Source: Streptomyces sp. NBC_01341 (GTDB lineage Bacteria > Actinomycetota > Actinomycetes > Streptomycetales > Streptomycetaceae). Taken from it: a stretch of DNA of 64,000 nt. The position numbers and the translations under genes are program-made. The stretch is taken from contig NZ_CP108364.1 of assembly GCF_035946055.1 (NCBI RefSeq), positions 682,001 to 746,000 on the forward strand. The letters are read 5' to 3'. The notes beneath the pieces are model-generated. The model did no database searches. It was not told where the DNA came from and saw only the letters and a program-made list of their open reading frames with translations. Positions 1,195-2,229 of this stretch are shown one piece after another (position 1 is the stretch's first letter; every line of letters begins with the position of its first letter).

Positions 1195-1327
1195 CCGTGC
1201 GCGGACACGGCCCCCGCCCGCGGCTCGTCCGGCCGGCAGGGTACGGGCGGGGTGGCGCCCCGCACACCGGTGGCGTCCGGGCGGGCCGGGTGACGCGGCG
1301 GCCGCCACCGGTGCCGGACCGCCTCCG

Positions 1328-1888
1328 TCAGGTCAGGCTGCGCTGGTAACGGTAGGTCAGCCTGCCGTCGGTGAAGTCGAAGTAGGCGGTGGGCGGGAAG
1401 AGCCCGGTGGCCGCCTTGCAGGCGTATTTCTCGACGAAGCCCGTGGTGGCGGGCCAGTTCGCATAACTCTGTCCCTGCACGACACAGGAGTCCTTGGGAA
1501 CGACTGCCCAGACCTGGGCCTCACTCATTCCCAGAGCGGTCTTGTTGTAGTGGGACAGCCTCATGGACGGAGTCTTCGGCTTGTACAGCAACTCGTTGCG
1601 CTTGGAGTACAGCTTGCCGTCATCGGTGAAGTCGAAGCCTCCGTAAGGGGCGTAGTCGCTCGACTCGGTGAAGCAGAGGATCGAGTCACCTATGACGCCG
1701 CCGGTGTCGCACGCCGGCTCGCCGCCGCCGATCTCCCAGACCTCGTCGAAGGTCATGCCGAACTGGATCTGCTCGTATCTCCCGACCGAGAAACCGGAAT
1801 TCGCCTCTGCGGCCGATGTCGTCGCGACGAGGGCCGCCGCGGCGGCGGCGAGCGCGACTCCCGCACGTGCAATCCGGGTCTTCACCAC
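1328..1888 (-). CDS. secreted BLIP-like protein (beta-lactamase-inhibitor family fold)
   Basis: About 186 residues with a signal peptide: KTR, a long Ala/Val core, then a cut near AEA-NSG. The mature protein has two repeats, each starting with a short helix motif: IQFGMTFDEVWEIGG in the first and TALGMSEAQVW in the second. This matches the tandem-domain architecture I recall for the beta-lactamase inhibitory protein BLIP of S. clavuligerus, including the paired cysteines around GDSILC and the closing FTDG strand. BLIP Asp49 appears conserved (SDYAPY). Several other contact residues are replaced (His148, Trp150, Arg160 and Trp162 become Tyr, Asp, Tyr and Arg). The start is one of two adjacent GTGs (1888 or 1885) behind a GAAAGGA ribosome site. 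Inhibitory activity is uncertain. Confidence 0.8.
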   Translation of the reverse strand: MVKTRIARAGVALAAAAAALVATTSAAEANSGFSVGRYEQIQFGMTFDEVWEIGGGEPACDTGGVIGDSILCFTESSDYAPYGGFDFTDDGKLYSKRNELLYKPKTPSMRLSHYNKTALGMSEAQVWAVVPKDSCVVQGQSYANWPATTGFVEKYACKAATGLFPPTAYFDFTDGRLTYRYQRSLT

Positions 1889-2229
1889 GTGTGTCCTTTC
1901 GTCGATGCCCCCGGGCACGCGCCTCGTCCTGGACACGATGGGGCGGTCCGTGCGGTGCGGGGGGCCGGCACCTGCTGCGCACGTCAGGCCCGCAGGCGTG
2001 GCCCCCGCCACCGGGCGCGACGTTATGGTCCGCCGCTCTCCGCCCCGTCTCCGGGCCGGCGCCGTGGCCGGGAAGCGCCAGTGCGTGCAGGCGCGTTCGT
2101 CCGCACACCGAACGCCCCTCACCCGGCGGGCAGCGCTGCCGCCCTCCCGACATCCCAGGGGCTGCGGGAGGGCGGTTCCGAGACCGTGCGTCGAGCGCCG
2201 CGGACCCTGCCCCGTCACCGCGGCGGCGC
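1889..2229. other. intergenic, upstream of the BLIP-like gene
   Basis: No gene with a credible start, ribosome site or conserved product was found on either strand. The part next to 1888 must hold the promoter of the BLIP-like gene, but no clear -35/-10 pair stands out. The part near 2230 would hold the 3' end signal of the epoxide hydrolase gene. Confidence 0.5.

Follow-up and report, generated by a model that had tools for sequence, protein, structure and literature searches.

A BLIP-I orthologue in Streptomyces sp. NBC_01341 and the association of BLIP-family genes with ccaR-bearing clavulanate-type clusters

The physiological job of the beta-lactamase inhibitory proteins (BLIPs) has been open since their discovery, with self-regulation, development and help for secreted beta-lactams as the candidate roles. 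The stretch of the Streptomyces sp. NBC_01341 chromosome analysed here (64,000 nucleotides, hereafter the window) carries a BLIP-family gene, whose product had been taken in a preliminary description for a BLIP-fold protein with an altered binding surface. The locus raises two questions: whether the protein is still an inhibitor, and what its host would use it for.

The gene and its product

The open reading frame runs on the minus strand from 1888 to 1328 and encodes a secreted protein of 186 amino acids; the preliminary description had placed it correctly but left out the strand. Its features are as follows.

1328..1888, minus strand: complete open reading frame of the BLIP-I orthologue
1330-1328, minus strand: stop codon TGA
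1894..1900, minus strand: ribosome-binding site GAAAGGA, kept in orthologues
1802..1888, minus strand: Sec-type signal peptide, residues 1-29, ending AEA (from the sequence)
1331..1801, minus strand: predicted mature inhibitor, 157 amino acids, two tandem alpha/beta domains
1655..1657, minus strand: codon of Asp78 of the precursor, by alignment Asp49 of BLIP and BLIP-I, in the loop entering the beta-lactamase active site

Two tandem GTG starts, at 1888 and 1885, follow the ribosome-binding site at distances of 5 and 8 nt. Cleavage before NSGF makes Asp residue 49 of the mature protein, matching the published BLIP-I numbering. The signal peptide, the Asp49 equivalent and the paired cysteines, all recognized earlier, are indeed present, the last as C60, C72, C135 and C157 of the precursor (by sequence and alignment).

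Pfam BLIP (PF07467) is the sole family in the reading frame (125.6 bits, E=2.2e-36; gathering cut-off 26.7). Among solved structures, BLIP-I matches best by sequence (3GMV, E=5.8e-87), followed by BLP (6e-39) and BLIP (2.6e-24); the alignment to 3GMV is gapless and runs end to end over 156/156 residues, with a mature-chain identity of 81%. The two tandem domains proposed earlier can be seen in the AF2 model (pLDDT 92.7, pTM 0.86) as two consecutive helix-helix-four-strand (HHEEEE) units, and no other fold fits the model better: the top Foldseek matches are apo and TEM-1-bound BLIP-I (3GMV and 3GMW, TM 0.95; rmsd 1.3 for 3GMV), and matches 1-16 are all BLIP, BLIP-I or BLP. In the protein tree the window protein groups with its counterparts from genomes G478, G052 and G622 and with BLIP-I (support 99/99), its closest relative being the G478 protein (94% identity), and BLP, a long branch, falls outside this clade. 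The mature protein encoded by K. papulosa NRRL B-16504 (L003) is identical to 3GMV in every letter. Against four orthologues, the dN/dS of the window gene is 0.12-0.25. The window protein is a BLIP-I orthologue under purifying selection. It is a new member of a known group, and the genus-wide link of BLIP genes with ccaR-bearing clusters and a promoter repeat is the more interesting result.

The contact surface

The preliminary description based its altered surface on the apparent replacement of His148, Trp150, Arg160 and Trp162 of BLIP. The replacements are real: the alignment reads Tyr, Asp, Tyr and Arg at these positions. However, BLIP-I has Ser, His, Tyr and Arg there and so is itself without all four BLIP residues, yet it inhibits TEM-1 with a Ki of about 0.05 nM (0.047-0.062 nM), more strongly than BLIP does (PMC6121496). 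The altered surface does not follow, because BLIP had been the sole reference; once BLIP-I is taken as the proper standard, the anomaly of a BLIP with a broken surface vanishes.

The BLIP positions used for alanine scanning stood in for the contacts of BLIP-I. They number 23 (PMC5340008). At 19/23 of them the window protein equals BLIP-I; the differences are G to S at 48, Y to L at 74, S to Y at 148 and H to D at 150, and those at 148 and 150 alter the chemistry. Asp49, Tyr50, Tyr53 and Glu73 are all kept. There are 29 substitutions relative to BLIP-I in all, 4/23 at contact positions and 25/133 elsewhere (p=1), which rules out a faster evolution of the interface.

The preliminary description had also offered another penicillin-binding target or a non-inhibitory relative such as BLP. 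BLP does share the fold (42-43% identity, TM 0.93), and the four differing contacts would suit a BLP-like protein with some other role; but positions 49, 53, 73, 141 and 142, which are diagnostic of BLP, read Asp, Tyr, Glu, Gly and Leu exactly as in BLIP-I, so that BLP identity is excluded, and BLP stands apart in the tree, although on a long branch. We regard a BLP-like non-inhibitor as very improbable, and with 19/23 contacts BLIP-I-like and the BLP-breaking positions unlike BLP, nothing in the surface points to either suggestion. Since the contacts are kept at the inhibitor positions and dN/dS is low, this BLIP-I orthologue is most likely an inhibitor, with class A beta-lactamases as its predicted targets, and inhibition resembling that of TEM-1 by BLIP-I would be expected.

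The clavulanate-type cluster and the promoter repeat

A search of the host genome for class A beta-lactamases led, by way of a Cpe/orf12-like protein, to a complete clavulanic acid cluster 209 kb from the BLIP gene (G000:868-898 kb; L052, L054). The cluster contains gcaS, oppA genes, cpe, a P450 gene, cad, claR, a class B-like gene, a SARP gene (ccaR), oat, ceaS, bls, pah, cas and a PBP gene (L054 12517-14187), with ccaR and the class B-like gene sitting between the oppA-gcaS and oat-cas blocks. The bls product matches beta-lactam synthetase (E=2.9e-202) and the cas product clavaminate synthase (E=1e-169); the ccaR orthologue (L054 3104-3919) has a BTAD domain, the class B-like gene was also checked against Pfam, and the remaining genes are presumably what their order and sequence features indicate. 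The layout is that of the S. flavogriseus group, whose type of cluster has been reported as non-producing (PMC9146315), and the small-molecule partner may therefore not be made in laboratory conditions. For the class A enzyme of the host (L025:1300-2253), a lipobox (LTAC) predicts a lipoprotein; its omega loop (ETDLS) has Ser where Asn170 is usual.

BLIP genes and such clusters occur together well beyond this host. Among 393 Streptomyces genomes, one per species, BLIP (called at E<=1e-10) was found in 9, and 9/9 carry a beta-lactam synthetase, which is present in 24/393 (p=2e-12). Eight more genomes have weak PF07467 matches (E 1e-3 to 1e-10), with a synthetase in 1/8. Sampling the order again, with 392 genomes and partial overlap with the first draw, gave BLIP in 10, five of them absent from the first draw, and a synthetase in 10/10 of these and 20/392 of all (p=9e-15). 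The synthetase alone is no proof of clavulanate production, as it can also serve other clavams. Across both draws, 22/35 bls-positive genomes have a ccaR orthologue no more than 30 kb from bls, and BLIP is present in 14/22 of these versus 0/13 of those without a linked ccaR (p=1e-4; this value and the two above overstate independence because the genomes are related). Some clavulanate-cluster strains have close orthologues of BLIP-I, with 75-94% identity to the window protein.

Common descent, or linked genes being transferred horizontally together, might create this association with no functional coupling. The BLIP gene is indeed only about 6-7 kb from bls in G217, G001 and G449, and relatedness among the genomes means that the events are not independent; but in the host, G478, G052, G072, G622 and G208 the two are 36 kb to nearly 2 Mb apart. 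What is conserved at the window locus, moreover, is the gene with its promoter alone.

1325..2059, no strand assigned: conserved unit of the gene and about 170 bp of its promoter, the extent of DNA similarity with G052 and K. papulosa

Outside this unit the flanks are unrelated between the window, G052 and K. papulosa. Those in the window encode a glyoxalase-like protein and an epoxide hydrolase, neither of which is known to be linked to beta-lactams. G478 has the same flanking genes with the BLIP gene between them (90-94%), and the placement of the gene is therefore not very recent; a search for a syntenic empty site as a mark of recent insertion found none, G023 having only the epoxide hydrolase in common. 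With the promoter repeat, too, kept in divergent clades, linkage without coupling seems to us improbable, and functional coupling is the reading that we prefer. The conserved upstream block was also considered as a repeated element and rejected as such, being single-copy in the host genome.

The block reads GAGACGG GGCG GAGAGCG GCGGACCA TAACGT and contains two predicted elements.

2034..2051, minus strand: predicted SARP (CcaR-like) site, heptamers GAGACGG and GAGAGCG with an 11-bp period, in a block conserved in orthologues
2020..2025, minus strand: predicted -10 box TAACGT, 8 bp past the second heptamer (from the sequence)

A spacing of 8 bp separates SARP heptamers from the -10 box, and TAACGT or TAGCGT occurs at the same spacing in G052, K. 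papulosa and G208. SARP sites are heptameric repeats overlapping the -35 region (PMC10972967); a scan for sigma-70-like promoters gave nothing. The pattern RAGA-N7-RAGA, defined on nine BLIP loci, recurs in 9/9 held-out loci from bls-positive genomes and thus in 18/18 BLIP-family promoters overall, an effective sample below 18 because these loci form perhaps six independent clades. It is present in 1.1% of random 320-bp windows and in 0/3 mappable weak Pfam-BLIP genes of bls-negative genomes. Over the 18 promoters, the period of 11 stands alone, no other exceeding 3/18, and of 768 tetramer classes RAGA comes out on top. Upstream of ceaS, at a distance of 71-78 bp, the same repeat is found in every BLIP-positive genome (14/14) and in four of the nine BLIP-negative bls genomes tested; in the other five, no ccaR is linked to bls. 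In S. clavuligerus, a ccaR mutant expresses less blip, which has a putative heptamer 104 bp upstream (PMC3992018). The repeat at the window gene fits a predicted control by CcaR, which would bind at the two heptamers.

Several relatives differ in arrangement or sequence. In G217 and G001 the BLIP-family gene lies within the clavulanate cluster, adjoining the class B-like gene and ccaR (L034:8542-9129, L035:946-1536). In G647 a second SARP gene (G647:C30:92377-94932) is found about 1.4 kb away from the BLIP gene; the clavulanate cluster of this genome is on a different contig. A divergent BLIP-fold subfamily (L012, L022, L023, L060) is about 25% identical to the window protein; the Asp49-Tyr50 loop is missing from it, whereas the SARP-like repeat is still present in its promoters. 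In G052 and G072 it occurs beside a BLIP-I gene, and it is possibly a non-inhibitory or differently aimed paralogue. The weak Pfam-BLIP proteins of bls-negative Streptomyces (L014, L019, L020), which are without the repeat, probably belong to another branch of the fold.

On balance we lean towards a wider reading, in which the BLIP family would form an arm of the clavulanic acid pathway that is conserved, inherited and regulated together with it throughout Streptomyces. On this reading BLIP-family genes would be confined to species with a ccaR-bearing clavulanate-type cluster, and each, including those of the subfamily without Asp49-Tyr50, would keep the CcaR-type repeat at whatever chromosomal place it occupies. 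A link between BLIP and ccaR was known in one species, as an expression change, and is seen here across the genus.

Proposed role and relation to known systems

The best explanation of the locus, to which we give a probability of roughly 0.85, is a BLIP-I orthologue predicted to block beta-lactamase, paired with a clavulanic-acid-type cluster and probably switched by CcaR. The SARP activator CcaR of the cluster would turn the BLIP gene on. In the predicted mechanism the tandem domains of the mature protein close around a beta-lactamase like a clamp, its Asp49-Tyr50 loop enters the active site, and beta-lactam hydrolysis is blocked. The cell would thus secrete two beta-lactamase inhibitors at once, one a protein and one a small molecule, which is the ecological role proposed here. 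The explanation builds on the family, the fold, BLIP-I orthology, the key loop, purifying selection, the co-occurrence with bls and cluster-linked ccaR, and the common promoter repeat.

The main target might instead be a PBP or the host's own cell-wall beta-lactamase, the role being self-regulation of the wall or of development and not the disarming of competitors. BLIP is a weak inhibitor of an Enterococcus PBP, and a link of BLIP-I to morphological differentiation has been described (PMC6121496); the latter report, Kang et al. 2000 as cited there, names such roles in its title, and to that extent would suggest a cell-wall role besides beta-lactamase. Modulation of the host beta-lactamase has been proposed for BLIP (PMC9146315), and candidate targets are at hand here in the class A lipoprotein and in the PBP encoded within the clavulanate cluster. 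Yet the BLIP gene tracks the clavulanate cluster in both distribution and promoter, and a clear copy is found in only about 2-3% of the sampled genomes, whereas PBPs are universal. We consider a self-directed role unlikely, though the most serious of the alternatives, and keep to the pairing with the clavulanate-type cluster.

A review from 2022 described blip genes as very rare and reported only proteins of <40% identity from newly found clavulanate-cluster strains (PMC9146315). Our survey finds close BLIP-I orthologues in such strains, with BLIP nested near-perfectly in ccaR-bearing clavulanate genomes. This nesting and the common promoter repeat make the pairing of a protein with a small-molecule inhibitor directly testable, and studies of class A beta-lactamase specificity gain a naturally occurring BLIP-I variant in the window sequence.

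Of the known systems, BLIP-I of Streptomyces exfoliatus SMF19 (3GMV, 3GMW) is the nearest, having the same fold, Asp49-Tyr50 loop and residues 160 and 162 and differing in the 29 substitutions, four of them at contacts, and in its gene neighbourhood. BLIP of Streptomyces clavuligerus (1JTG) shares the fold, Asp49, Tyr50, Tyr53, Glu73 and the disulfide cysteines at about 36% identity, but its Phe36, His41, Lys74, Trp112, Phe142, His148, Trp150, Arg160 and Trp162 are all changed in the window protein. BLP of the same species (3GMX), which has no inhibitory activity, has the same fold and Tyr50 in common with BLIP-I and the window protein, but carries His49, Gln53, Met73, Glu141 and Arg142. As to control, blip of S. 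clavuligerus also belongs to a clavulanate producer and is CcaR-dependent (PMC3992018). The CcaR regulon, governed by the SARP activator of cephamycin C and clavulanic acid, has its likeness in the host genome in the predicted site with its 11-bp-period heptamer repeat and in the ccaR orthologue, and the BLIP-I gene of K. papulosa carries the same conserved upstream promoter block as the window gene.
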